A DNA stretch of 51,396 bases from Actinomyces succiniciruminis (lineage in GTDB: Bacteria > Actinomycetota > Actinomycetes > Actinomycetales > Actinomycetaceae): the NCBI RefSeq assembly GCF_900002405.1, contig NZ_LK995527.1, positions 1-51,396 of the forward strand, given 5' to 3'. Positions 11,943 through 51,381 of this stretch are shown one piece after another. The notes under the pieces were generated by a model that saw only the letters and a program-made list of their open reading frames with translations, did not search any database and was not told where the DNA came from. The position numbers and the translations under genes are program-made. Position 1 is the stretch's first letter. Every line of letters begins with the position of its first letter.

Positions 11943-12033
11943 CCGAGATCGGTTGAAGTTACGTGCCGAGATCGGTTGAAGTTACGTACTGAGATCGGTC
12001 AGGGCTACCACCGACGTCGGTCGATCTGGCAGG
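11943..12033 (+). repeat. Family A 23-bp tandem repeat array, copy 1
   Basis: Two intact units start at 11943 and 11966 (core GAGATCGGTTGAAGTTACGT). A degenerate unit starts at 11989 and a terminal variant at 12011 (ACGTCGGTCGATCTGGC). It starts 12 nt after the kinase stop codon and has the same orientation as that gene. Each unit holds the dyad CCGA-NN-TCGG. Confidence 0.85.
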
Positions 12034-12063
12034 ACCCGCCCACGAGCGGCCCGCTGGCGCCCG

Positions 12064-12717
12064 CTATTTACGTCGCCAGCCGGAGGCGCGCTGCCCGGCC
12101 ACCCAGGCGGCCACCTGCGTGCGCCGCTGCAGGCCCATCTTGGCCAGCAGGGAAGTGATGTGGTTCTTGACGGTCTTCTCCGCCACCCCGAGCCGCTCGC
12201 CGATCTCCCGGTTGGACAGGCCGTCGCCGATGAGTTCGAGCACCTTGCGCTCGGCATTGGTCAGGTCGGCGGTGGGATCGTCGTGGTCCGCGCGACGGCG
12301 CGTGACGGTGCGCTCATCGAGCAGGACCCGCCCGGAGGCGACCGCCCGCACCACGTCGCTGATCTCGGCGCCGTGGACGGTCTTGAGCAAGTAGGCACGG
12401 GCGCCGGCGTCCAGGGACTCGGCCAGCGCCTCGTCGTCGTCGAATGAGGTCAGCACGATCGGCAGGGCCTCGGGCACGGACTCGCGCAGCGCCTGCATCA
12501 GCTCGATGCCGGTGCCGTCGGGCAGTTGCAGGTCCACCAGTACCACGTCCGGGCGCATGAGCTCCGCCCGGCGGATCGCCTCCGCCTTGGAGCCGGCCTC
12601 GGCGACCACGTCGAGCCCGTCGGCACGCTCAATGATCTCGGCGATGCCGCGGCGGACGATCTCGTGGTCGTCCACGATCATGACGCGGACCGTTTCGGGC
12701 GCGGGGGCACTCTGCAT
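12064..12717 (-). CDS. NarL/DevR-type response regulator
   Basis: DNA-binding response regulator, 217 aa. The receiver domain spans residues 10-125, with acidic pocket Asp16/Asp17, phospho-acceptor Asp62 in VLVDLQLPDGTG and the switch lysine in YLLKTVHG. A LuxR-type helix-turn-helix (about 150-210) contains LTNAERKVLELIGDGLSNREIGERL in two pieces. It faces the DevS-like kinase tail to tail and is its likely partner; bd oxidase genes are the natural targets. There is no Shine-Dalgarno. TAGTCT at 12725-12730 ends seven bases before the ATG, suggesting a leaderless mRNA. Confidence 0.9.
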   Translation of the reverse strand: MQSAPAPETVRVMIVDDHEIVRRGIAEIIERADGLDVVAEAGSKAEAIRRAELMRPDVVLVDLQLPDGTGIELMQALRESVPEALPIVLTSFDDDEALAESLDAGARAYLLKTVHGAEISDVVRAVASGRVLLDERTVTRRRADHDDPTADLTNAERKVLELIGDGLSNREIGERLGVAEKTVKNHITSLLAKMGLQRRTQVAAWVAGQRASGWRRK

Positions 12718-12724
12718 ATACCGG

Positions 12725-12730
12725 AGACTA
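12725..12730 (-). promoter_or_regulatory. -10 element (TAGTCT) for the leaderless response regulator
   Basis: The hexamer lies seven bases upstream of ATG 12717 and there is no ribosome site between them. Confidence 0.45.
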
Positions 12731-12749
12731 GCAGCAGCGGGGACCTACG

Positions 12750-13865
12750 TCACACGTGCCCGGTTGGCGGGCGGCACCGGCCGGGGATAGCCCCCGGGCG
12801 GGTGCGCCGGGGATGCCGTGGTGGCACGGAGGCGGGGCAGTTGCGCGGCAGACGCGGACGGGTCTGGCAGCGCGGGCAAAACACGTGACTGCGGCCCCCG
12901 ATCGTCTCGGCGCGCAGGAGCGCGCCGCAGCGTCGGCACTCCTGTCCGGCCCGCCCGTAGACCGCCAGGGAGCGGGCGAAGAAGCCGGCGGCGCCGTCGG
13001 CGTCCACGTACAGGGCGTCGAAGCTGGTGCCGCCCGCGGCCAGGGCCCGCTCCATGACCTCCCCGGTGGCATCCAGCAGGCGGGCGGTCACCCGCGGTCC
13101 CAGCGCACTGCCGCGGCGCAGGCCGTGCACGCGGGCGGCCCACAGTCCCTCGTCGGCGTAGATGTTGCCGACGCCGGAGACGATGCCCTGGTCCAGGAGC
13201 AGGGTCTTGACCGCCCGGTTGGAGTGGCGCATTTTGGCGACGACGGCGGGACGGTCCAGGTGCGGGTCGAGCAGGTCGCGGGCGATGTGGGTGACATCGG
13301 CCGGTATCAGTGGCGCGGGACTACCGGCGCCCCCGGGGGCGCCGTCGGCGGTGGACACCATGTCGGTCACCCGCAGGCCGCCGAACATGCGCTGGTCCAC
13401 CAGGTCCAGGACCGCGCCGCTGGCCGCGTCACCGGCGATGGGACGCAGGTGCAGGCGCACGCGCAGGTGCCGTGGGCGGGCGTCGGGATCCTCCGCCGGG
13501 AGCGGGGCGCGCGTGGCGGTCAGGTCCACGCGGGGCGCGTCGGGGTCGCCCAGAAAGGCGTGGGCGTCGTCGCCGGACTCACGCGCGGCGAGCGCGCCGG
13601 GGGTGCCGTGCACCAGCAGCTGCCCACTCATGCCCAGGTGGGCAACCAGGGCGGCCCCGTCGTCGAGCGGCAGCCACAAGAACTTGCCGCGGCGCACCGC
13701 GGCGGTGAAGGTGCGGCCGGTCAGCCGCTGCACGAAGGCGTCCGCGCCGCCCTCCTGCCGACGCAGCGGCCGCGGATCGAAGATCTCCACGCGCTCCACC
13801 ATGCGGCCGGTCAGGTGGCGGGCCAGGCCGGCGCGGACGGTCTCGACCTCGGGTAGTTCCGGCAA
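12750..13865 (-). CDS. mutM: Formamidopyrimidine-DNA glycosylase
   Basis: Base-excision repair enzyme that removes 8-oxoguanine and cuts the backbone by beta/delta elimination. The family needs Pro2 as nucleophile, and the protein reads PELPEVETVRAGL after codon 1. That fixes the start at the rare TTG 13865, four bases after the rnc stop. Longer frames to 13949 would destroy the active site. Length is 371 aa, longer than usual, through insertions after HLGMSGQLLVHG and after RVTDMVSTADG and a Pro/Arg-rich C-terminal tail. The zinc finger is present as ECRRC and FCPRC. It probably relies on translational coupling to rnc. Confidence 0.92.
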   Translation of the reverse strand: MPELPEVETVRAGLARHLTGRMVERVEIFDPRPLRRQEGGADAFVQRLTGRTFTAAVRRGKFLWLPLDDGAALVAHLGMSGQLLVHGTPGALAARESGDDAHAFLGDPDAPRVDLTATRAPLPAEDPDARPRHLRVRLHLRPIAGDAASGAVLDLVDQRMFGGLRVTDMVSTADGAPGGAGSPAPLIPADVTHIARDLLDPHLDRPAVVAKMRHSNRAVKTLLLDQGIVSGVGNIYADEGLWAARVHGLRRGSALGPRVTARLLDATGEVMERALAAGGTSFDALYVDADGAAGFFARSLAVYGRAGQECRRCGALLRAETIGGRSHVFCPRCQTRPRLPRNCPASVPPRHPRRTRPGAIPGRCRPPTGHV

Positions 13866-13869
13866 GGTT

Positions 13870-14745
13870 TCAGGCCCTCGTCGCGGCGTCGGCGGAACCG
13901 GTCGCCGCGGAGTCCGCGGTATCCCCGGCGGCCTCCGCTCCGGGGACATCGGCGGCGGCGCCGAGGTCGGCGCGCAGGGCGTCGTTGACCCCGGGCAGGC
14001 TCAGTCCGCCGTCGCCGCGCTCGGCCAGGATGGCGGCGTAGGCGGCCTCGGCCGCGGCGTGCTCGGCGATCTTCTTGGAGGAGCCGGAGCCCTCCCCGTA
14101 CACGCGGCCGTCCACGTGGGCGCGCGCGGAGAACACGCGCTGATGGTCGGGGCCCGTGCTCTCCACCTCGTAGCTGGGGTTGCCCAGGCCGTGCACGGCG
14201 GTCAGCTCCTGCAGGCTGGTCTTCCAGTCCAGGCCCGCCCCGCGCATGGAGGCGTCGTTGAGGAACCGGGACACCAGGCGCTCCACCACCACGCGCACCG
14301 GTTCCAGGCCCGTGGTCAGGTAGGTGGCGCCGATGAGGGCCTCAACGGTGTCAGACAGGATGGAGTCCTTGTCGCGGCCGCCGTACAGCGACTCGCCGCG
14401 ACCGAGTTTGATGAATTCGCCCAACCCCAAGTCGCGGGCGACGGCGGCCAGGGCCGGCTCGGAGACGGTGGCGGCACGCATCTTGGCCAGCTGCCCCTCG
14501 GGCAGATCCGGGTGGGTGCGGTACAGGTTCTCGGTGACGATGATGCCGAGCACCGAGTCCCCCAGGAACTCCAGGCGCTCATTGGTGGGCAGGCCGCCGT
14601 GCTCGTGCGCCCAGGAACGGTGGGTCAGCGCCAGATCGAGCAGGTCGGCGTCGATGCGTTCGCCCCAGCGGAAGACGAGCGTGTCCACGTCCTCGCGCGC
14701 CGCGGATACGGCACGCTTCTGCTTGTGCTTGCGCCGCGAGCTCAT
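13870..14745 (-). CDS. rnc: Ribonuclease III
   Basis: Double-strand-specific endoribonuclease that matures 30S pre-rRNA. The protein is 291 aa. The signature [13 protein letters not shown] (residues 55-67) and the second catalytic block [12 protein letters not shown] are intact, and a dsRNA-binding domain lies near 185-255. The last 45 residues are an Ala/Asp-rich tail. I start at ATG 14745 ([10 protein letters not shown]), which shares one base with the DUF177 stop (TGATG). An upstream start at 14940 would only add an Arg-rich shadow of the DUF177 frame. Confidence 0.94.
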
Positions 14746-26090: not shown

Positions 26091-26139
26091 CCTTGGCTCC
26101 GGCTCCCCGTTACCTTGTTTGTGGTCGCCGGTGAAGGAG

Positions 26140-26355
26140 TGCCGGTGGCTGGGCCAGCCGCTGTGGGCACGGGTGTCTTGCCCCTGTCGTTTGATGATCC
26201 GGGGGGTGTTGTCACCCATGGTGGCGGGCGGGGGGATGCGCTGATTAGGGGAACGGACCAAGGCGCCTTAGCCTTAGAGTCCTTTCGTAACGTGGGTGCG
26301 GGGCCGTCTGTCTGACAGGCTGACCCACCAACGCACGAGAGAGGCGCGCGGGAAG
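26140..26355 (+). ncRNA. Possible bridge-RNA region of the IS110 element
   Basis: IS110-group elements encode a structured guide (bridge) RNA in the long non-coding end before the transposase. Three successive hairpins are visible here: GGCTG/CAGCC (26147-26159), GGGCA/TGCCC with a 9-nt loop (26165-26183) and GGGTG/CACCC with loop TTGT (26204-26217). I could not match loop bases to donor or target. This is inference from family and structure. Confidence 0.35.
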
Positions 26356-27572
26356 ATGGATATCGAGGACGTGGAGGTCTTCGTCGGTATCGACGTCGGC
26401 AAAGCCGAGCACTGGGCCACGGCCCTGACCGCCGGCGGGAAGAAGCTGTTCGACAAGGCCCTACCCAACGACGAATCCAGGCTTAGGGACCTGTATGAGC
26501 GTCTGGGTGAGCATGGCCGGGTCCTGGTGGTCGTGGATCAGCCGGCGACGATCGGCGCCCTGGCGGTGGCGGTCGCTCAGGTCATGGACATAACTGTGGG
26601 CTACCTGCCCGGCCTGTCGATGCGGCGTATCGCGGACCTGACCCCGGGCAGTGCCAAGACCGACGCGAAGGACGCCGCGGTGATCGCCGATGCGGCCCGC
26701 ACCATGCCCCACACGCTCAGGTCCATCAGCACTTCGGACGAGGACGCGGCCGCGTTGAGCATGCTCACCGGCTTCGGGCCTGGACCTGGCCCGTCAGGAC
26801 CAGCCAGACCGAGGGGCCGTATCCGGGGCCCGTGTGCACCCAGATCCACCCTGCCCTCGAGACTGTGCTGGGCAAGTGGCTCGAACACGACAGCGTGCTG
26901 GAGGTGATCGCCGCCTGGCCCACCCCCGCCCGCCTGCGCAAGGCCGGGCGGGCGCGGATCGACGCCAAGCTCAAATCCAACGGGTGCAGACGCCATGCCG
27001 CCTGGGCGCAGGCCATCACCGACGCCCTTGCACGTCAGAGCGTGGTCGTGGCTGGTACCGACGCGGCCGGGGTGGTGCTGCCCCACCCGACACCGGCCGG
27101 CTCATCGCCCTGCACGCCCAACGCGACGATGTCGCCGCCCAGGTTGAGGCCCTGACGGGTGGCCCACCCTCTTTACCCGGTCCTGACCTCCATGCCCGGG
27201 GTGGGGGTCAGGACCGCCGCCGTGTTCCTGGCCGAAACCGCGGGCAGAACCTTCCCCACCGGCGCCCAGCTGGCCTCATACGCCGGCCTGACACCAGTCA
27301 CCCGGCGGTCGGGCTCCTCCATCCGGGGCGAGTATGTCTCCCACGCGGGCAACAAGCGCCTCAAACGCGCCATGTTCCTGTCAGCCTTCGCCTCACTGCG
27401 GTCCGACCCCGCATCCCGGGCGTACTACGAGCGCAAACGCGCCCAGGGCAAGCGCCACAACCAGGCCGTACTCGCCCTCGCACACCGCCGCATCCTGACC
27501 CTATACGCCATGATCCGAGACGGCTCCCTCTACGACCCCCAACCAACCCAGCAACTACCCGCCGCCGCTTGA
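26356..27572 (+). pseudogene. IS110-family transposase, frameshifted
   Basis: The N-terminal DEDD domain is intact (VFVGIDVGKAEHWA, KTDAKDAAVIADAAR). After MLTGF near 26775 the expected DLDLARQ reads in another frame. TQIHPALETVLGKW (about 26835-26880) is in a further frame, TGRLIALHAQRDDVAAQVEAL (about 27090-27155) shifts again, and the C-terminal Transposase_20 domain (LTSMPGVGVRTAAVFLAE, SSIRGEYVSHAGNKRLKRAMF) is in a last frame from about 27160. At least four indels are needed to restore one protein, so it cannot be active as read. The catalytic Ser region is still present. Sequencing error is less likely, given that several shifts are needed. Confidence 0.85.
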
Positions 27573-27598
27573 CAAACCACATAGGGGCACCCCCCTCA

Positions 27599-27690
27599 CC
27601 GAGATCGGTAGAAGTTACGTGCCGAGATCGGTAGAAGTTACGTACCGAGATCGGTAGAAGTTACGTACCGAGATCGGTAGATATGGCGAC
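27599..27690 (+). repeat. Family A 23-bp tandem repeat array, copy 2
   Basis: Three near-identical units start at 27599, 27622 and 27645 (core GAGATCGGTAGAAGTTACGT), followed by a terminal unit at 27668 ending GGTAGATATGGCGAC. Removing the IS would place the array just after the rpmB terminator, in the same direction as rpmB. Confidence 0.9.
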
Positions 27691-27701
27691 GGGCCGTGCA
27701 T

Positions 27702-28919
27702 CTATGCCATGAAGTGGTCCCAGCCGAGGCGCTCGGGCACGCGCCCGCCGAGCAGCACGGCCGCCGGCTCGCCCGCGTGCCGGGCGCGCACGGCTCCGAT
27801 CACCCGGGCGCCCTCCGGCAGCCGTTCGACCGCCGACGGCGGCAGCGTGGCCAGCAGGCCGTGGTCCTCTCCCCCGGTCAACGCCCAGGCCCGCGCCAGG
27901 TCACGCGCGGCCACGGCGTCGGGGCGAAGCAAGCCGGCGACCGGCGCCAACGCGGCGAGGTCATGCGTCAGCCCGGCCTCCGGGTCGCCGTCCGGGTCGG
28001 CGATCTCGACGACGACGCCGCTGGCCCGGGCGATCCGATCCGCGTCGCGCAGCAGCCCGTCGGACACGTCCAGCATGGCGTTGGCTCCGGCGTCGGCCAG
28101 GGCGGGACCTGCAGCCAGCGGCGGGCTCGGCGCCCGGTAGATGCGCAGGCATTGCGCGGCGGCCGCGGCAGCGCCGTCGTTGATCGTCATGCCGTCTTCG
28201 CCCGCGTCGCCCCGCGCACCGGCGTGGGCGGCAGCGACGGCGTCATCCCACCTGTTCGAGCGGTCATCCAGACCGGCCTGCAGCAGTGCGAGCCCGGCCG
28301 CCGAACGTCCCAGCGTGCCGCAGTGGACGACGAGGTCGCCGGGACGCGCGCCCGAGCGCCGCACCGGGCGGCGGCCATCCAGGTCGCCGTGGACGGTGAC
28401 GGCGATGACCACCCGGTCCCCGACACTCAGATCGCCGCCGACCACGCCCGCATCCGTGCCCGCACACGCGTCGGCGAAGCCGCGAGCCAGGTCCTGCACC
28501 CAGGCGACCGGGGTGGTGCGCGGCAGCACCAGGCTGACCACCAGCGTCGTCGGGCGCGCCCCCATGGCGGCGATGTCGGCGAGGTTCTGGGCGGCGGCGC
28601 GGGCCCCGACGTCGCGGGCGGTGGACCAGTCGGGGCGGAAGTGCTCGCCCTGGACGAGCACGTCGGTGCTCACGCAGTAGCGCCCGTCCGGGGCGGCGAC
28701 CACGGCGCTGTCGTCCCCACTGGGCACCTCCACGCGGGCCGCCTGCGGCAGCAGCGGGGTGAAGGCGGCCAGCAGCGCCTCCTCCCCCAGGTCGGCGACG
28801 GTGGTTGCGGCACCACTGCCGGCAACGGAGTCGCCGGCGGCAGCACCATCGGAATCGACGGTTTCGACGCCGCGGCCGGCCGGGGGCGTCCCGACGTCGT
28901 CGGCCTCAGCGGTTGACAT
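27702..28919 (-). CDS. thiL: Thiamine-monophosphate kinase
   Basis: Last step of thiamine diphosphate synthesis (TMP plus ATP gives TPP). The protein is 405 aa, long for the family because of an Ala/Gly/Asp-rich N-terminal 45 residues and a mid-protein insertion near 225-260. Motifs: GDDSAVV, VSTDVLVQGEHF, NLADIAAMGA, GVVGGDLS, LDVSDGLLRDADRIA and LTGGEDHGLLATLP. ATG 28919 lies inside the end of ddl (14-base overlap), so the two are co-translated. No other thiamine gene is near. Confidence 0.93.
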   Translation of the reverse strand: MSTAEADDVGTPPAGRGVETVDSDGAAAGDSVAGSGAATTVADLGEEALLAAFTPLLPQAARVEVPSGDDSAVVAAPDGRYCVSTDVLVQGEHFRPDWSTARDVGARAAAQNLADIAAMGARPTTLVVSLVLPRTTPVAWVQDLARGFADACAGTDAGVVGGDLSVGDRVVIAVTVHGDLDGRRPVRRSGARPGDLVVHCGTLGRSAAGLALLQAGLDDRSNRWDDAVAAAHAGARGDAGEDGMTINDGAAAAAAQCLRIYRAPSPPLAAGPALADAGANAMLDVSDGLLRDADRIARASGVVVEIADPDGDPEAGLTHDLAALAPVAGLLRPDAVAARDLARAWALTGGEDHGLLATLPPSAVERLPEGARVIGAVRARHAGEPAAVLLGGRVPERLGWDHFMA

Positions 28920-30138
28920 CTCTGGGACGCTCGAGCGCCAGCTCGATCAGCTCGGTGACCAGGTCGCGGTAGGCCAGCCCGGATACCTGCCACATGTAGG
29001 GGTACATGGAGAAGGGCGTGAAGCCGGGCATGGTGTTGACCTCGTTGACGATCGCCTCGCCGTCCGGGGTGAGGAAGAAGTCGACGCGGGTCAGGCCCTC
29101 CCCGCCGATGGCGATGAAGGCCTCTGCGGCCCGGCGCATGAGCAGTTCGCGTTCGGCCGGGGCGATGTGGGCGGGGCAGACCATGGCGACGGCGTCGTGG
29201 GCCAGGTACTTGGTCTCGTAGTCGTAGAACTCGCCGGCGCCGTTAGCGGCGTCCATGACGATCTCGCCGGGCTCGGCCACGCGCGGGGCGGCGTCGCCGT
29301 GTCCGGCGAGCACCGCCACCTCGATCTCGCGGCCGACGACGCCGGACTCGACCAGCACCTTCGGATCCACCTCGCGGGCAGCCTCAATGGCCGCGTCCAG
29401 GTCGGAAAGATCCTCCACCCGGCTGATGCCCAGGGAGGAGCCGGCGCGGGCGGGCTTGACGAACAGGGGGCGGGCCAGGTCGGCGCACTGGGCGAGGATG
29501 GTGGCCTTGTCACGGCGCCAACGATGCGGCTCGACGAGCACATGCGGGGCGGTGGGAATACCGGCGGCCTGCAGCAGCACCTTGGTGACCTGCTTGTCCA
29601 TGCCGGCGGCGGAGGCGAGCACGCCGCAGCCTACGTAGGGCAGGCCCAGCATCTCCAGCATCCCTTGGATGGTGCCGTCCTCGCCGTAGGGGCCGTGCAG
29701 CAGCGGCAGGACGACGTCGACGGTGCCGAGAACCTCTGGGCCGGCGGGGGTGATCGCGGTCAGATTCCCGCCCCCCAGCCGCATGGCCAGTTCGCCGCGA
29801 CCGAGCCCGTCGGTGGTGATCTCCACCGGGGGACGGGCGTCGTCCAGGCGCAGGGCGTCGGGATCGTCGTCCACCAGCACCCACTGGCCCTGGCGGGTGA
29901 TGCCGATGGGCACGACGTCGTAGCGGTCCCGGTCAATGGCGTCCAGCACGCCGGCGGCGGTGGCACAGGAAATGGTGTGCTCGCCGCTGCGGCCCCCGAA
30001 GACGACAGCGACCCTCGGCTTGTGCGGCCGTGCGGCGGCCGGGGCCTGCGTTGAGGGGGCCGGGGCCGACGAGGTGAAGAGACCGGAATCCGTGCTTGCG
30101 CCGGTGCTTACTGCGTTTGAGGCATGAGGGGCCGACAT
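28906..30138 (-). CDS. ddl: D-alanine--D-alanine ligase
   Basis: Makes the D-Ala-D-Ala dipeptide of peptidoglycan precursors. The protein is 410 aa with an ATP-grasp fold. Motifs: VFGGRSGEHTISCATA, PLLHGPYGEDGTIQGMLE, MDKQVTKVLL, FVKPARAGSSLGISRV and the Mg-binding EVNTMPGFTPFSMYP. A Ser/Ala-rich stretch of about 40 residues precedes the domain. The start ATG 30138 is leaderless type (TAGCGT ends seven bases before it). The thiL start lies within its end. Confidence 0.95.
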   Translation of the reverse strand: MSAPHASNAVSTGASTDSGLFTSSAPAPSTQAPAAARPHKPRVAVVFGGRSGEHTISCATAAGVLDAIDRDRYDVVPIGITRQGQWVLVDDDPDALRLDDARPPVEITTDGLGRGELAMRLGGGNLTAITPAGPEVLGTVDVVLPLLHGPYGEDGTIQGMLEMLGLPYVGCGVLASAAGMDKQVTKVLLQAAGIPTAPHVLVEPHRWRRDKATILAQCADLARPLFVKPARAGSSLGISRVEDLSDLDAAIEAAREVDPKVLVESGVVGREIEVAVLAGHGDAAPRVAEPGEIVMDAANGAGEFYDYETKYLAHDAVAMVCPAHIAPAERELLMRRAAEAFIAIGGEGLTRVDFFLTPDGEAIVNEVNTMPGFTPFSMYPYMWQVSGLAYRDLVTELIELALERPRDVNR

Positions 30139-30145
30139 GGTGGCA

Positions 30146-30151
30146 ACGCTA
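30146..30151 (-). promoter_or_regulatory. -10 element (TAGCGT) for leaderless ddl
   Basis: The hexamer ends seven bases before ATG 30138; no Shine-Dalgarno lies between. Confidence 0.45.
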
Positions 30152-30300
30152 CCGCTACCCGGGCGGATCGAGTGTCAAGTCACCGCTCGACGTCGGGCGC
30201 GCCGTCGGCCGGTACCGAAGTATCTGTTCCTATGCACCACCAGCCCCTCCCTCGTATGATTGACGTCACACGCGTGGTTCACTCGAGGTCAGGAGACGTC

Positions 30301-31498: not shown

Positions 31499-31527
31499 CA
31501 CGAGCGTGTTCAGGCGCCACTCCCCCT

Positions 31528-31830: not shown

Positions 31831-31902
31831 CGCCATTACGACCGATCTCAGCACGTAACTTCAACCGATCTCAGCACGTAACTTCCACCGAACTCGGCGA
31901 GA
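31831..31902 (-). repeat. Family A 23-bp tandem repeat array, copy 3
   Basis: Read on the minus strand: CCGAGTTCGGTGGAAGTTAC, then CTGAGATCGGTTGAAGTTAC, then a terminal CTGAGATCGGTCGTAATGGC. It begins about 9 nt after the gpsA stop and runs in the same direction as gpsA. Confidence 0.85.
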
Positions 31903-31910
31903 GGGGCGGC

Positions 31911-32942: not shown

Positions 32943-33799
32943 GACTGCTGCTCCGGGGCGGTTTCGGGCTCGTCGTCGCCCTCGTCGTCACCCGGGTTGT
33001 CGGGCGGCGTGCCCGGCCCGGAGAGGTGCTCGTACTCCGACGGCGCCGGCGGGTCAGGCCGACGCACGCCGATGTTGCCCTTGCCCGGATCGCCGTCGTA
33101 CTTCATGTCGAAGGGGCGGGGCGCCTTCTCGCCGCGCAGTTGCTCCACCAGCTCGGTGATATGCCGCATGATCTCGGCGGTGGCGGCGCGCACTGCAGCG
33201 TGATCGGAGGTGTCCGTGCCGAATTCGGCCAGGTCGAAGGGCTTCCCGATCAGGACGTCCACGTCCTTGCGGGGGAAGGGGCGGAAACCGCTGCCGTAGG
33301 CGCCCAGCACGTTCTGGGCGCCCCACTGGCCGATGGGCAGCAGGGGCGCGCCGGTGCGCATGGCCAGGCGGGCGGCGCCGGTCTTGCCGGTCATGGGCCA
33401 CTGCAGCGGGTCACGGGACAGCGTGCCCTCGGGGAAGATCATGATCGGGTCGCCCGCGCGCAGACGCCGCTCGGCCTCCACCAGGGAATCGCCGGCGTGG
33501 GTGGAGCCGCGGTAGACGGGGATCTGACCACCGGCGCTGAAGACGTGGCCGAGGATGGGGATTTCGAACAGCTGGGACTTTGCCAGCGAGTAGATGGGCA
33601 CGTCCGCATCCACGAGCGCGCGCATGGCGGTGAGCGGGTCCAGGTTGGACAGGTGGTTGGCGACGGCGATGAAGCCGCCCTCGCGGGGAATGTTCTCCAC
33701 GCCGGTCACATGCTGCTTGGAGACCGCCTTGAGGAACGGAATGATCGCCCCCCTGGCCGCGAACCGGTAGAACGGGGTCATGCGTCGTGTGTTCGCCAC
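32939..33799 (-). CDS. plsC: 1-acyl-sn-glycerol-3-phosphate acyltransferase
   Basis: Membrane-associated acyltransferase that makes phosphatidic acid. The protein is 286 aa. The catalytic NHLSNLDP block (HX4D type: His at about 48, Asp at about 53) and the FPEGTLSRD block are present. The C-terminal 40 residues are acidic and disordered. GTG 33799 has no Shine-Dalgarno, but TAGAGT ends six bases before it (leaderless type). Confidence 0.92.
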   Translation of the reverse strand: MANTRRMTPFYRFAARGAIIPFLKAVSKQHVTGVENIPREGGFIAVANHLSNLDPLTAMRALVDADVPIYSLAKSQLFEIPILGHVFSAGGQIPVYRGSTHAGDSLVEAERRLRAGDPIMIFPEGTLSRDPLQWPMTGKTGAARLAMRTGAPLLPIGQWGAQNVLGAYGSGFRPFPRKDVDVLIGKPFDLAEFGTDTSDHAAVRAATAEIMRHITELVEQLRGEKAPRPFDMKYDGDPGKGNIGVRRPDPPAPSEYEHLSGPGTPPDNPGDDEGDDEPETAPEQQS

Positions 33800-33805
33800 A
33801 TCGGC

Positions 33806-33811
33806 ACTCTA
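33806..33811 (-). promoter_or_regulatory. -10 element (TAGAGT) for leaderless plsC
   Basis: The hexamer ends six bases before GTG 33799. Confidence 0.45.
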
Positions 33812-33923
33812 CCCACTGGCGTGCGCCGCGGGCGCGAAATGACCGCGGGCCGACCCGGGCGCGGGTATGCGGGCGGCCCGCCGGGACGCTCCGGCGCCGC
33901 GGGGCGACCGGCGCCGGACCAGG

Positions 33924-35246
33924 TCAGGCCAGGCGGGTGACGTTGGCGTCGAGCGCGGCGAGCTTGCTCATGAAGTGCTCGTACCCGCGGTCGATGAGGT
34001 TCACGCCCTCCACGCGGCTGGTGCCCTCCGCGGCGAGTGCGGCGATCAGGTGGGAGAAACCACCGCGCAGGTCGGGCACCACGATGTCGGCCCCGTGCAG
34101 GGGCGTGGGCCCGGAGATGACGGCGGAGTGGTAGAAGTTGCGCTGCCCGAAACGGCAGGCGGTACCGCCCAGGCACTCGCGGTACACCTGGATGGTGGCG
34201 CCCATCTTGCGCAGGGCGCCGGTGAAGCCGAAGCGGTTCTCGTACACGGTCTCGTGCACGATGGACAGCCCCTCCGCCTGGGTCAGGGCGACGACGAGCG
34301 GCTGCTGCCAGTCGGTCATGAAGCCGGGGTGAACGTTGGTCTCCACCACGATGCTCTTCAGGTCGCCGCCCGGGTGGTAGAAGCGGATGCCGTCGTCGCG
34401 CACGTCGAAGGCGCCGCCGACCTTGCGGAAGATGTTCAGGAAGGTGGTCATGTCGCTCTGGTGGGCGCCGTGGACGAACACGTCACCGTGGGTGGCCAGG
34501 GCGGCCGCAGCCCAGGAGGCGGTCTCGATGCGGTCGGGCAGGGCGCGGTGGTTGTAACCGACCAGCTCGTCCACGCCCTCGACGTGGATCGTGCGGTCGG
34601 TGTCCACGGAGATGATGGCCCCCATCTTCTGCAGCACGTCCACCAGGTCCATGATCTCCGGCTCGACGGCGGCGCCGCGCAGCTCCGTCAGGCCCTCGGC
34701 GCGCACGGCCGTGAGCAGCGTCTGCTCGGTGGCGCCGACGGACGGGTAGGGCAGCTCGATGACGGTGCCGTGCAGCCCATCGGGAGCGGTCAGGCGGATG
34801 CCCTGGGGCTGCTTGTCAACGATCGCGCCGAAGCTGCGCAGGATGTCCAGGTGGAAGTCGATGGGGCGGTCACCGATGCGGCAGCCGCCCAGGTCGGGGA
34901 TGAAGGCCTCACCGAGTCGGTGCAGCAGCGGCCCGCAGAACAGGATCGGGATGCGGGAGGAGCCGGCGTGGGCGTCGATGTCGGCCATGTGGGCGCTCTC
35001 GACGCTGGAGGGGTCCAGGCGCAGGATGCCCTCGGCCTGGTCGTAGTCGACGCTCACCCCGTGCAGGGACAGCAGCCCGGAGACGACGTCGACGTCGCGG
35101 ATGAGCGGCACGTTGTGCAGCACCGACGGCGTGGTGCCCAGGAGGGCGGCGACCATCGCCTTGGGGACGAGGTTCTTGGCGCCCCGGACGGTGATTTCAC
35201 CGTTGAGCGGGCGCCCGCCCTCGACCTGAAGCAGACCGTCGACCAT
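33924..35246 (-). CDS. murA: UDP-N-acetylglucosamine 1-carboxyvinyltransferase
   Basis: First committed step of peptidoglycan synthesis, transferring enolpyruvate from PEP to UDP-GlcNAc. The protein is 440 aa with an EPSP-synthase-like fold. RGAKN near the N-terminus carries the conserved Lys/Asn pair. The loop GGCRIGDRP keeps the catalytic Cys targeted by fosfomycin, unlike mycobacterial MurA, which has Asp. ATG 35246 has GGAGG at good spacing; the longer frame to 35300 is not supported. It probably has its own promoter (35324-35329). Confidence 0.95.
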   Translation of the reverse strand: MVDGLLQVEGGRPLNGEITVRGAKNLVPKAMVAALLGTTPSVLHNVPLIRDVDVVSGLLSLHGVSVDYDQAEGILRLDPSSVESAHMADIDAHAGSSRIPILFCGPLLHRLGEAFIPDLGGCRIGDRPIDFHLDILRSFGAIVDKQPQGIRLTAPDGLHGTVIELPYPSVGATEQTLLTAVRAEGLTELRGAAVEPEIMDLVDVLQKMGAIISVDTDRTIHVEGVDELVGYNHRALPDRIETASWAAAALATHGDVFVHGAHQSDMTTFLNIFRKVGGAFDVRDDGIRFYHPGGDLKSIVVETNVHPGFMTDWQQPLVVALTQAEGLSIVHETVYENRFGFTGALRKMGATIQVYRECLGGTACRFGQRNFYHSAVISGPTPLHGADIVVPDLRGGFSHLIAALAAEGTSRVEGVNLIDRGYEHFMSKLAALDANVTRLA

Positions 35247-35295
35247 GCGTACCTCCGAGTGTTCGCGTGAAGATCGGGCGCCGCGGGGATACGGC

Positions 35296-35329
35296 GTCAC
35301 CCGCGCCGGACGCGGGTGACCTCAGCATA
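35296..35329 (-). promoter_or_regulatory. Candidate murA promoter with hairpin at the 5' end of the leader
   Basis: On the minus strand TATGCT (35329-35324) is a good -10, and transcription would begin near 35317. A perfect 10-bp hairpin, GTCACCCGCG with CGCGGGTGAC (35296-35320, 5-nt loop), would then lie at the very start of the murA mRNA. It could stabilise the message or help end leuD transcription, but no T-run follows it. Confidence 0.4.
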
Positions 35330-35434
35330 GGCGGACCGGGCAGGAACGGAAGATGCCGCAGCCCGCTCACAGCGAACGGTGACGTGTCCTTCAACTCAGC
35401 GATGTGGCGATGTAGGACGGCGCAGCGGGAATAC

Positions 35435-36118
35435 TCAGGCTCCCGGGCGGAGGAAGGGGTAGCCGACCGGCACGGGCATATCCGCGGAGCGGGCAGGGAC
35501 CACCCGGGCGTCCGGCTCGTGGCGGGCCGGCAGGGTGCGCGGCTTGTAGGCGGGGCGGGCGTCCTCATAGGCGCGGATGGCGTCCTCGTGGGTGAGGGTC
35601 AGCGAGATGTCGTCCAGGCCCTCCATGAGAGTCCAGCGCACGTAGTCGTCGATCTGGAAGACGGTGCGGAAGGAGCCCGCCTCGACGGTGCGCTGCTCCA
35701 GGTCCACGGTGATCTCGGTGCCGGGCTCGGTCTCCAGGATCTTCCACAGCTGCTCGGCATCCTCCTGGCTGATGACGCCGGCCACCAGCCCCTGCTTGCC
35801 GGCGTTGCCGCGGAAGATGTCGGCGAAGCGGGGGGCGAGCACCACCTTGAAGCCGTAGTCCTTCAGCGCCCACACCGCGTGCTCGCGGGAGGAGCCGGTG
35901 CCGAAGTCGGGGCCGGCCACCAGCACGCTGGCGTGCTTGTAGGCGTCCTGGTTGAGGATGAAGTCGGCCTCATTCGCCCGCCAGGAGGCGAACAGGGCGT
36001 CCTCGAAGCCGGTGCGGGTGATGCGCTTGAGGTAGACGGCGGGGATGATCTGGTCGGTGTCGACGGCGCTGCGGCGCAGCGGGGCGCCGATGCCGGTGTG
36101 GCGGATGAACTTCTCCAT
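35435..36118 (-). CDS. leuD: 3-isopropylmalate dehydratase small subunit
   Basis: Partner of LeuC in leucine synthesis; it carries the swivelling substrate-binding domain. The protein is 227 aa. Motifs: [31 protein letters not shown] and [13 protein letters not shown]. The tail of about 30 residues is longer than in enterobacterial LeuD. It lies 43 bp after leuC in the same operon. Confidence 0.95.
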
Positions 36119-36161
36119 GGGTGGCTTCCTTCTCGGGCTGGCGGCGGACGGCGCGGGCGAC

Positions 36162-37577
36162 TCAGGCGGCGAGCACCGGCAGGTCCGCGGGGGTGGACAA
36201 GGTGCCGCGCACGGCGGTGGCGGCGGCGACGACGGGCGAGACCAGGTGGGTGCGCCCGCCCTTGCCCTGCCGTCCCTCGAAGTTGCGGTTGGAGGTGGAG
36301 GCGGAGCGCTCCCCGGGCGAGAGCTGGTCGGGGTTCATGCCCAGGCACATGGAGCAGCCGGCGTTGCGCCACTCGGCGCCGAAGTCCTTGAACACCTGGT
36401 CCAGGCCCTCGGCCTCAGCCTGCAGGCGGATGCGGGCGGAGGCCGGCACCACCAGCATGCGCAGGCCGGGCGCCTTGGTGCGGCCCTTGATGACGGCGGC
36501 GGCGGCGCGCAGGTCCTCGATGCGACCGTTGGTGCACGAGCCCAGGAAGACGGTGTCGACCTTGATGTCGCGCAGCGGGGTGCCGGGCTTGAGATCCATG
36601 TACTCCAGGGCGCGCTCGGCGGCGCGGCGGCCGGTCTCGTCCGCGATGTCCTCGGGGTTGGGGACGGCGCCGGAGATGGGCAGGCCCTGTCCCGGGTTGG
36701 TGCCCCAGGTGACGTAGGGCTCGATGTCGGCGGCCTGCAGGACGACCTCGGTGTCGAAGACGGCGTCGTCGTCGGTGCGCAGCGAGCGCCAGTAGGCGAC
36801 GGCGTCATCCCAGTCCTTGCCCAGGGGGGCGTGCGGGCGACCCTCCAGGTAGGCGAAGGTGGTCTCGTCGGGGGCGATCATGCCGGCGCGGGCGCCGGCC
36901 TCGATGCTCATGTTGCAGATGGTCATGCGGGCCTCCATCGACAGCTGCTCGATGGCGCGGCCACGGTACTCGATGACGTGCCCCTGGGCGCCATTGGTGC
37001 CGATCTTGGCGATGATGGCCAGGATGATGTCCTTGGCGCCACTGCCTGCGGGCAGGTCGCCGTCGATGAGCACGCTCATGGTCTTGAAGGGCGCCACGGG
37101 CAGGGTCTGGGTGGCCAGCACGTGCTCGACCTGGCTGGTGCCGATGCCGAAGGCGAGCGCCCCGAAGGCACCGTGGGTGGAGGTGTGGGAGTCGCCGCAT
37201 ACAACGGTCATGCCCGGCTGGGTCAGGCCCAGCTGCGGGCCGACGGCGTGGACGATGCCCTGGTCGGCGTCGCCGAGGGAGTGCAGACGCACCCCGAACT
37301 CGGCGCAGTTGGCGCGCAGGGTCTCGATCTGGGTGCGGGAGGTGACGTCCGCGATGGGCAGGTCGATGTCGAGGGTGGGGGTGTTGTGGTCCTCGGTGGC
37401 CAGGGTCAGGTCGGGGCGGCGGACCTTGCGGCCGGCCAGGCGCAGTCCCTCGAAGGCCTGCGGGCTGGTGACCTCGTGGACGAGGTGCAGGTCAATGTAG
37501 AGCAGATCCGGGGCTCCGTCGGTGCCGGGGGCGACTACGTGGTCGCGCCACACCTTCTGTGCCAGGGTCATTCCCAT
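36162..37577 (-). CDS. leuC: 3-isopropylmalate dehydratase large subunit
   Basis: Aconitase-family [4Fe-4S] enzyme of leucine synthesis that isomerises 2- to 3-isopropylmalate. The protein is 471 aa. Motifs: [35 protein letters not shown], the cluster cysteines in [13 protein letters not shown] and [12 protein letters not shown], and [20 protein letters not shown] 37577 has AGGAAAGGAAG upstream. It lies divergent from the IclR-type regulator, which is the likely controller. A strong hairpin (37608-37653) is in its leader. Confidence 0.95.
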
Positions 37578-37607
37578 CGCTGCACTTCCTTTCCTAAAGG
37601 GGCCGTT

Positions 37608-37658
37608 CGGCCCGGAGCCGCCCGCATTTGCGGAACCGGCAAACTCCGGGCCGTTTTT
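37608..37658 (+). terminator. Hairpin with T-run between leuC and its regulator gene
   Basis: CGGCCCGGAG (37608-37617) pairs perfectly with CTCCGGGCCG (37644-37653). The loop holds a second hairpin, CCGC-ATTT-GCGG. TTTTT follows on the plus strand, so it looks like an intrinsic terminator for plus-strand transcripts entering from leuC. On the minus strand the same hairpin sits in the leuC leader, about 30 bases before its start codon. Confidence 0.6.
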
Positions 37659-37709
37659 CTGACTCCACGCTACTTGAAGTCTCACCACTCGGAATGGCAG
37701 TATCAGATT

Positions 37710-38450
37710 ATGGACACTCTGGGTGACATCGAAAGCGGCAGCGGGGTTGGCGTCATCGACAAGGCCGCACTGGTCATGAGCGCCCTCGAGGCGGGCCCGG
37801 CCACGCTGGCGCAGCTGGTCACCACCACCCACCTCGCCCGTCCGACGGCGCATCGCATCGCCGTGGCACTGGAGTTCCACCGCCTGCTGGCTCGCGACGC
37901 CCAGGGCCGGTTCATTCTGGGACCGCGCCTGAACGAGCTCGCCTCCGCCGCCGGGGAGGACCACCTGCTGGCCGCCGCCGGCCCGGTGCTGGCGGCCCTG
38001 CGGGACAAGACGCACGAGTCCGCACAGCTGTACCGGCGTCAGGGGGACGTGCGCGTGTGCGTGGCCAACGCCGAGCGTCCCATCGGGTTGCGCGACTCGA
38101 TTCCGGTGGGGGCAACCATGTCCATGCAGGGCGGCTCCGGCGCGCAGGTGCTGCTGGCCTGGGAGGAGCCCGACCGGCTGCACCGCGGCCTGGTGGGCGC
38201 CCGCTTCAACGCCACCATGCTGTCCGCGGTTAGACGGCGCGGCTGGGCCCAGTCCGTCGGCGAGCGCGAGCCGGGGGTGGCCAGCGTGTCGGCGCCGGTG
38301 CGCGGTGCCAGCGGCAAGGTGGTAGCGGCCGTATCCATCTCGGGGCCGATCGAACGCATGGGCCGTCAGCCCGGGCGCGTGCACGGCCCGGTGGTGGCCG
38401 CCGCCGCGCGCCGCCTGTCGGAGGTTCTGCGCAACAACGACGAGGGCTGA
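37710..38450 (+). CDS. ndgR: IclR-family regulator, NdgR/LtbR-like
   Basis: Transcription regulator of 246 aa. A winged helix-turn-helix (about 10-75, [22 protein letters not shown]) is followed by an IclR effector domain (about 80-240). Being divergent from leuCD is the hallmark of NdgR in Streptomyces and LtbR in Corynebacterium, which regulate leuCD. Control of leuCD is therefore a firm inference. ATG 37710 has no good ribosome site; upstream frames read through the leuC leader and are not credible. A family A array follows the stop. Confidence 0.85.
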
Positions 38451-38480
38451 ACCTCTCCCCCCTCCCCTCCCACTTCCTCA

Positions 38481-38550
38481 CCGAGGTCGGTAGAAGCTAC
38501 GTACCCAGGTCGGTAGAAGTTACGTACCCAGGTCGGTCGATATGGTCGCC
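38481..38550 (+). repeat. Family A 23-bp tandem repeat array, copy 4
   Basis: Units start at 38481 (GAGGTCGGTAGAAGCTACGT), 38504 (CAGGTCGGTAGAAGTTACGT) and 38527 (terminal, CAGGTCGGTCGATATGGTC). It starts 30 nt after the regulator stop and has the same orientation as that gene. Confidence 0.85.
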
Positions 38551-38604
38551 GCCTCCGACGCCGATAATGTCCGCGCGCCCCTCGGCTGCCGCCCCGCTCA
38601 CCCG

Positions 38605-38610
38605 TACACT
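38605..38610 (+). promoter_or_regulatory. -10 element (TACACT) for leaderless pimB
   Basis: The hexamer ends six bases before ATG 38617; the spacer CGCCCC is not a ribosome site. Confidence 0.45.
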
Positions 38611-38616
38611 CGCCCC

Positions 38617-39756
38617 ATGCGTCGGACCCTGCTCGTCACCAATGACTTCCCGCCCGTCGTCGGCGGCATCCAGTCCTACCTGGACGACTACACCCGGCGC
38701 CTGCCCGCCGCGGACCTGACCGTCCTGGCTTCCACCCCGCCCGAGGGCCCCGACGCCGCCGCGGCCTTCGACCGCGAAGCCACCTTCGACGTCGTGCGCA
38801 TGCCCACCCACGTGCTGCTGCCGACTCCGGACGTGCGCCGGCGCATGCAACAGCTCATCCGTGAGCGCGGCATCGAGACCGTCTGGTTCGGAGCCGCCGC
38901 CCCGCTCGGCCTGCTGGGCCGCGCCGCCAAGGAGGCCGGCGCCACCCGGGTCATCGCCACCACCCACGGGCACGAGGTCGGCTGGGGCATGGTGCTCGGG
39001 GCCCGCCAGGCCCTGCGCCGCATCTTCCGCGACGCCGACGTCGTCACCTACATATCCGACTACACGCTCGGCGAGCTGCGGCCGCATATGCCCGCGGATC
39101 AGGAGGTGCTGCGCCTGCCCAGCGGCATCGACGTCGACCGCTTCCACCCGGACCCCGAGGCGCGCGCCGCGCTGCGCGCCCGGTACCGGTTGGACGAGGC
39201 CCCCACCGCCGTGTGCGTTTCCCGGCTGGTCGCCCGCAAGGGGCAGGACGCGTTGATCTCCGCCTGGCCGCGGGTGGTGGAACAGGTTCCGGACGCCCGA
39301 CTCGTCGTCGTCGGCTGGGGGCCTTATGCGAAGAAACTGGCCCTGTTGCGTCGCTCCTCCCCCGTGCGCGAGTCGATCATCCTGACCGGCAAGGTCCCCT
39401 ATGAGGAGCTGCCCGGACATGTGGCCATGGGCGATGTCTTTGCCATGCCCTGCCGCACACGCGGGGGCGGGCTCGATGTCGAGGGCCTCGGAATCGTCTT
39501 TCTTGAGGCCTCGGCCGCCGGCCTGCCGGTGATCGCCGGGACGAGCGGCGGGGCGCCCGAGACGGTTGCGGAGGGCGTGACCGGCAACATCGTCGACGGC
39601 CGGGATGAGGATGCGCTTGTGTCCGCTCTGGTGCGCCAGTTGACCGACCCCGAACTGCGCGCGCGCATGGGGGAAGCCGGACGCGCCCTCATGATCGAGA
39701 AATGGACCTGGCCCGGATTGGTCGAGAGCCTCGTGCAGGCGATCGACGCCCGGTAG
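38617..39756 (+). CDS. pimB: GT4 glycosyltransferase, PimB-type mannosyltransferase
   Basis: Retaining GT-B glycosyltransferase of 379 aa. It most likely adds the second mannose to phosphatidylinositol mannoside from GDP-mannose at the inner membrane face. N-terminal LLVTNDFPPVVGGIQSYLDD matches PimB (mycobacterial Rv2188c). GIDVDRFHPD, CVSRLVARKGQD and the EX7E element in EGLGIVFLEASAAGLPV are GT4 signatures. The start is leaderless type; a frame to 38542 would cross the repeat array. Its stop lies 11 bases from the nrdR stop. Confidence 0.8.
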   Translation: MRRTLLVTNDFPPVVGGIQSYLDDYTRRLPAADLTVLASTPPEGPDAAAAFDREATFDVVRMPTHVLLPTPDVRRRMQQLIRERGIETVWFGAAAPLGLLGRAAKEAGATRVIATTHGHEVGWGMVLGARQALRRIFRDADVVTYISDYTLGELRPHMPADQEVLRLPSGIDVDRFHPDPEARAALRARYRLDEAPTAVCVSRLVARKGQDALISAWPRVVEQVPDARLVVVGWGPYAKKLALLRRSSPVRESIILTGKVPYEELPGHVAMGDVFAMPCRTRGGGLDVEGLGIVFLEASAAGLPVIAGTSGGAPETVAEGVTGNIVDGRDEDALVSALVRQLTDPELRARMGEAGRALMIEKWTWPGLVESLVQAIDAR

Positions 39757-48870: not shown

Positions 48871-49482
48871 GTGAGCGAGCAGCACTACTTCACCGCCTCC
48901 CCCGAGGCGCCCGCCGAGGAGCGGCGCCATCACTTCGTCATCCGCGGCACCGAGCACGACGTGACCACCGCGTCCGGCGTGTTCTCCGCCGACCGGCTGG
49001 ACCTGGGCACGCGCGTGCTGCTGAAGCAAGTGCCGCATCCGCCGCAGACGGGCACCTTCCTGGACCTGGGCTGCGGCTGGGGGCCGCTGACGCTGGCCCT
49101 GGCGGACGCCGCCCCACAGGCCACCGTGCTGGCCACGGACGTCAACGAGCGCGCCGTCGAGCTGACCGGCCGTAACGCCGCCGACGCCGGGCATACCCGC
49201 GTGCGCGCCGTGACCGCCGACGCGCTACTGGCGGAGCTGCGCGGTGCCGACACGCGGCTGGACCTGATCTGGTCGAACCCGCCCATGCGGATCGGCAAGC
49301 CGGCGCTGCACGCGCTGCTGTCGGATTGGCTGGGGCTGCTCGCCGACGACGGCGAGGCCTGGCTGGTGGTGCAGAAGAACCTCGGCGCGGACTCGCTGGC
49401 CAAGTGGCTTACCGATCAGGGCTGGCAAGTGGAGCGCGCGGCCTCCTCCAAGGGCTACCGTCTCCTGCGCGTCACCCACTGA
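48871..49482 (+). CDS. RsmC/YbxB-like class I methyltransferase
   Basis: SAM-dependent methyltransferase of 203 aa, likely acting on rRNA guanine. The SAM loop is FLDLGCGWGPLTLAL, the acidic residue is in ATDVNERAVELT, and the catalytic motif SNPPMRIGK is the NPPxxxGK type of RsmC. It has only the catalytic half found in the short YbxB subgroup. The GTG start is leaderless type. A family A array begins five bases after the stop. Confidence 0.88.
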   Translation: MSEQHYFTASPEAPAEERRHHFVIRGTEHDVTTASGVFSADRLDLGTRVLLKQVPHPPQTGTFLDLGCGWGPLTLALADAAPQATVLATDVNERAVELTGRNAADAGHTRVRAVTADALLAELRGADTRLDLIWSNPPMRIGKPALHALLSDWLGLLADDGEAWLVVQKNLGADSLAKWLTDQGWQVERAASSKGYRLLRVTH

Positions 49483-49487: not shown

Positions 49488-49556
49488 CCGAGATCGGTAG
49501 AAGTTACGTCCCGAGATCGGTAGAAGTTACGTGCCGAGATCGGTCTAGGCCGCATG
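49488..49556 (+). repeat. Family A 23-bp tandem repeat array, copy 5
   Basis: Units start at 49488 and 49511 (core GAGATCGGTAGAAGTTACGT), then a terminal unit at 49534 (GAGATCGGTCTAGGCCGC). It starts five bases after the methyltransferase stop and runs in the same direction. Confidence 0.9.
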
Positions 49557-50361: not shown

Positions 50362-50368
50362 GCGTCGG

Positions 50369-50851: not shown

Positions 50852-50858
50852 GCTGAAC

Positions 50859-50864
50859 AGCCTA
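50859..50864 (-). promoter_or_regulatory. -10 element (TAGGCT) for leaderless DUF523 gene
   Basis: The hexamer ends seven bases before GTG 50851. Confidence 0.45.
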
Positions 50865-50928
50865 GCGGCCCGAAGCAGTCCGACGTCGAGCACACTACAA
50901 TTCGAAACAGAAGCCGTTCCGAACAAGT

Positions 50929-50934
50929 TATCAT
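50929..50934 (+). promoter_or_regulatory. -10 element (TATCAT) for leaderless DsrE-like gene
   Basis: The hexamer ends seven bases before ATG 50942. It lies back to back with the DUF523 -10 element, 64 bp away. Confidence 0.45.
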
Positions 50935-50941
50935 CACCGAG

Positions 50942-51271
50942 ATGAGTCACTTTGTTCTTCATGTTTCTCAAGCCGATCGCTGGCCGGCCGCACTGAGTAA
51001 CCTGGCCAATATGACCGAACTCGGCTTGGCTGACGCCATCACGGTGATGGTCAATGGAACAGCGATCTATGCGATTCAGGGCACCAACGATTGGACGGCC
51101 GCAATGGAGCGGGCCGCTGCTGCCGGCGTCACCTTCGAAGTTTGCTCACGTTCAGTGGCCAACCACGCCCTCCCCGTTGAGACTCTGCCATCATGGTTCC
51201 GCGTCGTACCGGCCGCGATACCTGCAATTGCGGAATACGTCCGCGCCGGGGCGACCTACATCAAGCCATGA
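50942..51271 (+). CDS. DsrE/DsrF-like small protein
   Basis: Protein of 109 aa resembling the DsrE/F fold: N-terminal strand FVLHVSQADRW, a helix, VMVNGTAIYAI, and a Cys in VTFEVCSRSVANHAL at the usual active-site place. Members take part in sulfur relay or are of unknown role; no sulfur genes are nearby. Its base composition is clearly lower in GC than the rest of the window, as is its promoter region, so it may be acquired. The start is leaderless type. Confidence 0.7.
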   Translation: MSHFVLHVSQADRWPAALSNLANMTELGLADAITVMVNGTAIYAIQGTNDWTAAMERAAAAGVTFEVCSRSVANHALPVETLPSWFRVVPAAIPAIAEYVRAGATYIKP

Positions 51272-51299
51272 CGCCCTGGGAGGAACAACCCTCCTGTGC

Positions 51300-51381
51300 C
51301 GGTCTCGGCATGTAACTACCACCGACCTCGGCACGTAAGTTCAACCGACCTCGGCACGTAAGATCAACCGACCTCGGCGAG
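51300..51381 (-). repeat. Family A 23-bp tandem repeat array, copy 6
   Basis: Read on the minus strand: CCGAGGTCGGTTGATCTTAC, CCGAGGTCGGTTGAACTTAC, CCGAGGTCGGTGGTAGTTAC, then a terminal CCGAGACCGGCACAGG. Unlike copies 1, 2, 4 and 5 it runs leftward. By the rule seen elsewhere it should follow the 3' end of a minus-strand gene to the right of the window. Confidence 0.85.

Follow-up and report, generated by a model that had tools for sequence, protein, structure and literature searches.

The first 51,396 nucleotides (nt) of contig NZ_LK995527.1 of Actinomyces succiniciruminis, hereafter the window, carry six short tandem arrays of a repeat with a 23-bp period, which we refer to as family A. An earlier note on this DNA had placed arrays at 11943, 27599, 31831, 38481, 49488 and 51300, and we found all six at these positions. 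Array 1 (11943..12031, + strand; dyads at 11943, 11966, 11989 and 12011, then the terminal arm TCGATCTGGCA) begins 12 nt past the stop codon of a histidine kinase gene (GAF/HisKA_3, 10098-11930). Array 2 (27599..27688, +; dyads at 27599, 27622, 27645 and 27668; terminal arm TAGATATGGCG) lies 26 nt past a stop, between an IS110-type insertion and a convergent AIRS-domain gene (27702-28919, −) that we take to be thiL; the preceding gene is the open reading frame (ORF) of the insertion (PF01548 in 26356-26907, PF02371 in 27159-27572). Array 3 (31831..31897, −; three dyads; terminal arm TCGTAATGGCG) is 13 nt past the stop of gpsA (31911-32942, −; Pfam NAD_Gly3P_dh), the letters between them being GCCGCCCCTCTCG (31898..31910, −). 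Array 4 (38481..38547, +; dyads at 38481, 38504 and 38527; terminal arm TCGATATGGTC) starts 30 nt past the stop of an IclR-type gene (called 37776-38450), and the stretch between stop codon and array (38451..38480, +) exemplifies the C-rich, G-poor leader described below. Array 5 (49488..49554, +; dyads at 49488, 49511 and 49534; an atypical terminal arm) is 5 nt past the stop of a methyltransferase gene (MTS domain; here called rsmC, 48871-49482). Array 6 (51299..51377, −) has four dyads and ends on the last of them, CCGAGACCGG. Directly upstream of it, just beyond the window's right end, a run of N (L121 398-498) of nominal length abuts the array. The next co-oriented gene was called on the far side of this run, at a provisional distance of 186 nt. 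The stop-to-array distance of 5–30 nt claimed in the earlier note thus holds for arrays 1 to 5.

The IS110-family insertion (window 26100-27598) sits between a terminator-like hairpin of rpmB and array 2 and, by eye, inside the C-rich leader. The earlier note had counted the rpmB terminator as the starting point in this case, disrupted by an insertion sequence (IS); in three relatives, G024, G035 and A. ruminicola (G028), there is no IS between hairpin and array (stretches L211, L213 and L214).

The element is laid out as follows: a C-rich, G-poor leader, then [CCGAGRTCGG + TNGAAGTTACGTR]n, a last dyad, and a terminal arm with the consensus TNGATATGGCG, after which sequence similarity stops. 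Tandem Repeats Finder detected the 23-bp period in six of six window arrays, and the claimed regularity of the unit held in all of them apart from one 22-nt step in array 1. The dyad itself, given as CCGA-NN-TCGG, is less uniform than proposed, the array at 31831 having CTGA half-dyads and that at 38481 CCCA. Allowing three mismatches at most, the 22-nt unit has 14 matches in the window, where shuffled sequence gives 0.02 on average, and in the genome from which the window comes (3.33 Mb, 90 contigs) the 19-nt unit core matches at least 104 times with at most two mismatches, a reversed control giving 0. A large genome-wide family had been predicted, and these matches, together with recurrence in other Actinomyces, bear this out. 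We assembled 126 arrays with at least two dyads. Of these, 69 come from the window's genome, in stretches chosen around 100 listed places of the at least 104 unit matches, and 57 from loci of named species (hereafter named loci), which were picked by an exact two-dyad pattern (positions 6 and 12 free), so that their units look more uniform than those of the genomes. A weight matrix derived from the units scored 388 of them across the window, 49 further stretches of its genome and 43 named loci; the same letters reversed gave 2. Two dyads are present in 34 arrays, three in 51, four in 27 and five to seven in 14, and the arms measure 12–13 nt. Arms of the same array are close to copies of one another, the average difference within an array being 2.57 of 23 (104 arrays), and the suggestion that arrays have a polarity and a defined end held up: where inner arms read TTA, the terminal arm has T, G and G at frequencies of 0.73, 0.74 and 0.69 (124 arrays).

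Between stop and array, the leader is 0.55 C and 0.20 G (60 arrays, window's genome and named loci), compared with 0.39 C and 0.33 G in the 25 nt after 217 array-less stops. It is equally C-rich where the upstream gene is antisense (C 0.56, G 0.19; 27 arrays), and leaders in the genomes G006, G008, G009, G013 and G016 (C 0.49–0.56, G 0.09–0.24) and in one set from G012 (C 0.62, G 0.17) are similar. Among the arrays of the window's genome and the named loci we found no common leader sequence beyond CYCR at the border, and the leader therefore recurs as a composition rather than as a copied sequence.

To place arrays relative to genes we used a purpose-made hexamer caller trained on these loci, which is not an annotation, gives only rough start codons and was applied unchanged to the other lineages; as a null, equally many positions were drawn at random within those gaps. 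A co-oriented stop codon no more than 50 nt before the array was seen for 44 of 65 arrays of the window's genome (null mean 8.1, maximum 18 in 2,000 trials), for 35 of 52 in the named loci (null 6.3, maximum 15 in 2,000 trials) and for 21 of 30 in the G024 sample (null 3.0, maximum 9 in 1,000), about half of whose stretches were chosen knowing the hits, as were at least 2 of 20 in G025 and one further set of stretches. The upstream gene is co-oriented for 49 of 65 arrays in the window's genome and 44 of 52 in the named loci, counts that exclude one-unit arrays and arrays without both neighbours. In G025 it is co-oriented for all 19 scored arrays, 7 of which fall within 50 nt (null 1.4, maximum 6), and in G008, 7 of 11 arrays are near a co-oriented stop (null 1.9). 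Tandem gene pairs gave sense:antisense ratios of 23:11 in the window's genome alone (p 0.058), 27:6 in the named loci, 50:17 for the two together (p 7e-5) and 69:22 once G024 and G025 were added. Divergent gaps are avoided (5 of 65 arrays in the window's genome, null 17.8; 2 of 52 in the named loci, null 10.3). Neighbouring arrays less than 1.5 kb apart face each other in 24 of 35 cases and point away from each other in 1, as expected if they are placed after convergent genes. The arrays had been described as fixed to gene 3′ ends in sense orientation. Their preference for such ends beats random placement, but "fixed" is too strong, given the 44 of 65 within 50 nt and the antisense upstream gene in 16 of 65; 3′-end placement is a preference, not a rule. 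The outcomes that the earlier note named as refuting, a lack of strand or position bias or of recurrence outside the window, did not come about in the window's own clade; several other Actinomyces lineages show less bias or none.

In 15 of 98 sense arrays the upstream gene's called stop falls at one fixed place inside the first unit, on its TNG, which reads TAG if N is A. A broader role as an all-frame stop-codon trap, in which units supply stops at a period not divisible by 3, was rejected, as the listed arms of G009 and G013 have no stop codon.

The window-type unit occurs in 7 of 49 genomes of the genus; in these seven, and in no others, gpsA reaches an identity of at least 93% with that of the window, 84% being the next value. 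A generic two-dyad pattern has 24–576 matches in 19 of the 49 and 0–7 in the remaining 30; across 164 genomes from the other Actinomycetaceae genera its count never exceeds 4, with up to 3 in the control. We regard family A as restricted to Actinomyces. The core CGAGNYCGG recurs across the genus as the arms change; the search pattern fixes this core, so that what it demonstrates is recurrence and not full conservation. Arms are specific to groups of genomes, with a period of 22 or 23: TAGATATAACCAT in G025, TCGAAAATAGGAG in G008 and G016, TCCGGTTCCGCAC in G009 and G013, and GACTAATGACACC in G012 and G039. On a gpsA tree of 30 genomes, a single-gene tree with 19 genomes outside it, carriage (13 of 30) needs four changes, fewer than in any of 500 shuffles.

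Among carriers, arrays keep their places as their letters change. After gpsA, an array or remnant is present in 7 of 7 carriers (a remnant in A. glycerinitolerans, G010), and the same is true after rsmC (a single dyad in A. glycerinitolerans); at both loci the sequence beyond the array differs between species. The leader GCCGCCCCTCTCG is identical after gpsA in G024 and one letter different in G035. The gap between rpmB (Ribosomal_L28) and thiL holds an array in the window's genome, G024, A. ruminicola and G035, a degenerate single dyad in A. glycerinitolerans and no array in G025; no match was found in A. ruminis (G029). Eleven orthologous ends sampled in G025 gave 8 arrays, 1 remnant and 2 without either. 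For the window's genome and named stretches, 67 comparisons from 91 queries gave 60 arrays, 5 remnants and 2 with none, a count that is biased toward presence, includes some pairs in both directions and has a copy of an IS gene as one of its two absences.

Orthologous arrays differ by 3.60 per 23 nt between the window's genome and G024 (12 pairs), 3.55 between the window's genome and A. ruminicola (14) and 3.70 between G024 and A. ruminicola (8), and unrelated arrays across these genomes by 3.98, 3.73 and 3.93. Within one genome, arrays differ by 2.89 in G024 and by 2.00 in A. ruminicola, the latter partly by way of picking; those of the window's genome differ by 3.98 and are not homogeneous. 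At unit position 6, which the pattern leaves free, G is found in 0 of 96 units in A. ruminicola, 55 of 78 in G024 and 88 of 140 in the window's genome. The nearest species keep the letters: two pairs between the window's genome and A. glycerinitolerans, four of whose proteins are 92–100% identical to the window's, are identical, and one A. ruminicola–A. ruminis pair differs by 1.0. Judged from these letters, arrays seem either to change in concert where they stand or to be seeded anew at the same sites, with fast unit turnover and drift as the alternative.

Further repeat structures occur in the window and in other carriers. Beyond the gpsA array, window 31540-31770 holds clustered GGTTCGTAC repeats in both orientations. 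Near matches to CGGTTCGTAC number 9 over the entire window, where 2.4 would be expected, and 6 of them fall in this cluster; in 5 of 7 carriers the GGTTCGTAC family is found no more than 250 nt after gpsA. In G012 there is a second tandem family with a 19-nt unit (GACCGGTCATGTNACTC), matched in 4 of 228 loci, all from G012 (L179 8260; L181 452; L184 8302-8397 and 19468; L189 38-102). G025 has a dispersed composite repeat of about 780 bp (L229 14080-15000) whose ends are inverted family A arrays (116 nt, 93% complementary); the L229 copy starts directly after a tRNA-Ala gene (14093-14166), and partial relatives occur in L247, L238, L243, L246 and L248. Tail-to-tail arrays separated by a few nt are frequent in G008, G006 and G016, where each such doublet forms a long palindrome flanked at either end by a C-rich leader (L293 6837-6930, L292 8478-8580, L305 6480-6570 and L298 4451-4540).

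REP-type (repetitive extragenic palindromic) repeats at gene 3′ ends, here considered together with bacterial interspersed mosaic elements (BIMEs), are usually tied to REP-associated tyrosine transposases (RAYTs). We found no RAYT-type (Y1/HUH) transposase, PF01797 matching in 0 of 49 genus genomes at E 0.001 (the control rang in 5 of 14). Neither a reverse transcriptase (matches in 20 of 49 genomes, with no RVT_1 match in the window's own) nor IS110 (28 of 49, with no match in G008, G016, G024, G035, G039, G042 and G047) tracks carriage. The GTAG tag of RAYT-linked REPs is not constant here: only 144 of 249 junctions have A at position 12, and the motif overlaps the dyad's 3′ edge. As in REP/BIME, the Actinomyces repeats are short, many-copy dyads, extragenic and mostly downstream of genes between co-directional or convergent ORFs (in the window's clade, and more weakly in some other lineages); variants differ between genomes, some species have tail-to-tail dimers, and units supply stop codons, much as GTAG termini often supply TAG to flanking ORFs according to the available text of a REP survey (PMC3733652). 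They differ in having a fixed 22–23-nt head-to-tail period, a terminal arm, a C-rich leader and another host group. Compared with the 20–40-bp palindrome and selected pairing of REP/BIME they give a mixed picture: a 10-bp dyad without covariation, yet a wobble asymmetry of 33 to 9 arrays. Because transposase and constant tag are both lacking, the arrays are REP-like in behaviour and not members of the RAYT-linked REPs. The available text of the same survey describes CGTC REPs as apparently without a dedicated transposase (PMC3733652), which the present arrays resemble in this respect, although they have no CGTC tag, belong to another host group and have a different period and different arms. 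The portion consulted names other phyla as hosts of GTAG and CGTC repeats, and the words Actinomyces and Actinobacteria are absent from the survey's main text (PMC3733652). CRISPR arrays (clustered regularly interspaced short palindromic repeats) also have regular repeats with spacers, but the arms here are near copies rather than unique spacers, and each array is very short, the 69 that have at least two dyads being dispersed over the stretches of the window's genome. None of the titles and abstract openings that we examined describes this Actinomyces repeat family.

The anatomy of the element, its position and strand bias in the window's clade, the conservation of its position between species and the composition of its leader lead us to favour, with somewhat less than even confidence, a RAYT-less REP/BIME-like family that acts as an RNA 3′-end element, for which loading of Rho on the leader would be the most economical step. 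Most copies in the window's clade would be transcribed in sense, as the first tens of nucleotides of the 3′ untranslated region. The ribosome-free, C-rich leader could then be the entry site for a single-strand RNA-binding factor, with Rho as the best candidate, and the array might hold RNA polymerase or block 3′-5′ exonucleases. We infer array transcription, the binding of any factor, the involvement of Rho and 3′-end formation or protection alike. Rho-dependent terminators contain a C-rich, G-poor, ribosome-free stretch, and Rho sites, unlike the Actinomyces elements, are not repeat arrays. The leader resembles such a stretch in composition and in following a stop codon, the location from which we take it to be free of ribosomes. 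In the accessible part of a 2026 paper, REPs are hairpins that stabilise RNA 3′ ends without terminating (PMC13289151), and clusters of short hairpins after stop codons have been proposed as terminators, as the available text of another paper has it (PMC8355165).

A stem acting in RNA should leave traces in the dyads, and one pattern of change fits: C-to-T exceeds G-to-A (33 versus 9 arrays, p 0.0003), which keeps a G-U wobble in the sense RNA. This asymmetry is the only dyad-change pattern that fits sense RNA, and several results weigh against the reading as a 3′-end element. The earlier suggestion that neighbouring units could pair through their dyads found no support, with no excess of paired cells over independence at 249 junctions. 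Columns 11 x 23 and 12 x 22 (neighbouring units) and 0 x 11 (within the dyad) showed no excess pairing, so that covariation lends no support to an RNA stem. At the pair next to the dyad, the changes in 525 dyads run slightly against pairing (p 0.017), and the pair-breaking change of G3 to C, found in 21 arrays, is among the commonest dyad changes. Fold energies of the six window arrays (z −1.6, −3.9, −2.4, −0.2, −1.3 and −1.0) clearly beat shuffles in two only. Rfam gave 0 matches at gathering in the window, which excludes a known RNA family at that threshold, and three sub-gathering matches at five array loci (E 1.5, 3 and 4.6), to animal or viral families. The rpmB array stands behind an intrinsic terminator that by eye looks intact. 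Placement and leader speak against the reading in places as well. The upstream gene is antisense for the 16 arrays noted above, and the sense bias near stops is weak or missing in G009 (2 of 9, null 0.9), G013 (0 of 4, 0.5), G006 (2 of 7, 0.9), G016 (5 of 13, 1.6) and one G012 set (3 of 9, 1.0); a second G012 set has 2 of 3 (0.4). Leaders in G025 contain less C (C 0.37, G 0.23, with both dyad strands mixed), and those of one small G012 set are not C-rich (three arrays; C 0.38, G 0.35). At a response-regulator locus the window's genome has an array and, of the nine other genomes searched with the window's regulator, G024 alone shares it, and units are more alike within some genomes than between orthologues, as in spreading repeats.

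This last point leads to the reading that we consider nearly as likely, in which family A is REP-like and mobile, either selfish or neutral. Some transposase or recombinase would spread it, C-rich 3′ regions would be where it settles or where its survival is best, and it would play no part for the host. Orthologous arrays are almost as different (3.55–3.70 per 23 nt) as unrelated arrays of different genomes (3.73–3.98), and arrays within G024 (2.89) or A. ruminicola (2.00) are closer to each other. The tail-to-tail palindromic doublets of G008, G006 and G016, the G025 composite with inverted arrays as its ends, and the patchy carriage in 19 of 49 genomes are likewise what a mobile repeat would leave. 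Yet the 49 genomes have no Y1/RAYT transposase to move it, and neither reverse transcriptase nor IS110 follows carriage; positions are mostly stable between species, and a neutral landing does not predict the 69:22 orientation in tandem pairs. Moreover, arrays within the window's genome are as unlike (3.98) as those between genomes, and the two pairs identical with A. glycerinitolerans are what plain descent gives.

That the arrays are a new kind of 3′-end element in Actinomyces strikes us as doubtful. On this reading the arrays keep their positions at orthologous gene ends, and each genome would rewrite them to match its own arm sequence, either through gene conversion or through self-directed copying, with no HUH transposase involved. 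A single factor common to the genus would recognise the conserved core CGAGNYCGG and couple the translation stop, the C-rich leader and the array to mRNA 3′-end formation. Still less probable is a DNA element, in which the core would be the site of a DNA-binding protein (a nucleoid protein, roadblock or insulator) read every 22–23 bp. The core is kept in its letters, not in its pairs, and is met again throughout the genus beside changed arms; both points fit this idea, as do the 22–23-bp spacing and the occurrence in both orientations and between convergent genes. A pure DNA site, however, leaves the gene-relative strand bias and the strand-asymmetric, C-rich leader unexplained, and no candidate protein was found in a search that covered three transposase or reverse-transcriptase families only. 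Ordinary intrinsic terminators in tandem would account for dyads after stop codons but are hardly credible here, since TTTT follows the terminal arm within 15 nt in 0 of 126 arrays, a terminator scan of 27000-39000 returned a single site, beside array 2 on the other strand, with none on the three arrays there and 2.6 expected by chance, and rpmB by eye has its own classical-looking terminator before the array.

With up to 576 two-dyad matches per genome, Actinomyces carries a family that in the window's clade has a REP-like address without a RAYT, in a phylum that the REP survey, in the portion available, does not list (PMC3733652). Its stationary loci with turnover of letters allow concerted evolution in place to be tested cleanly in bacteria, and the question of how transcripts end in high-GC Actinobacteria finds ready-made sites in these arrays.

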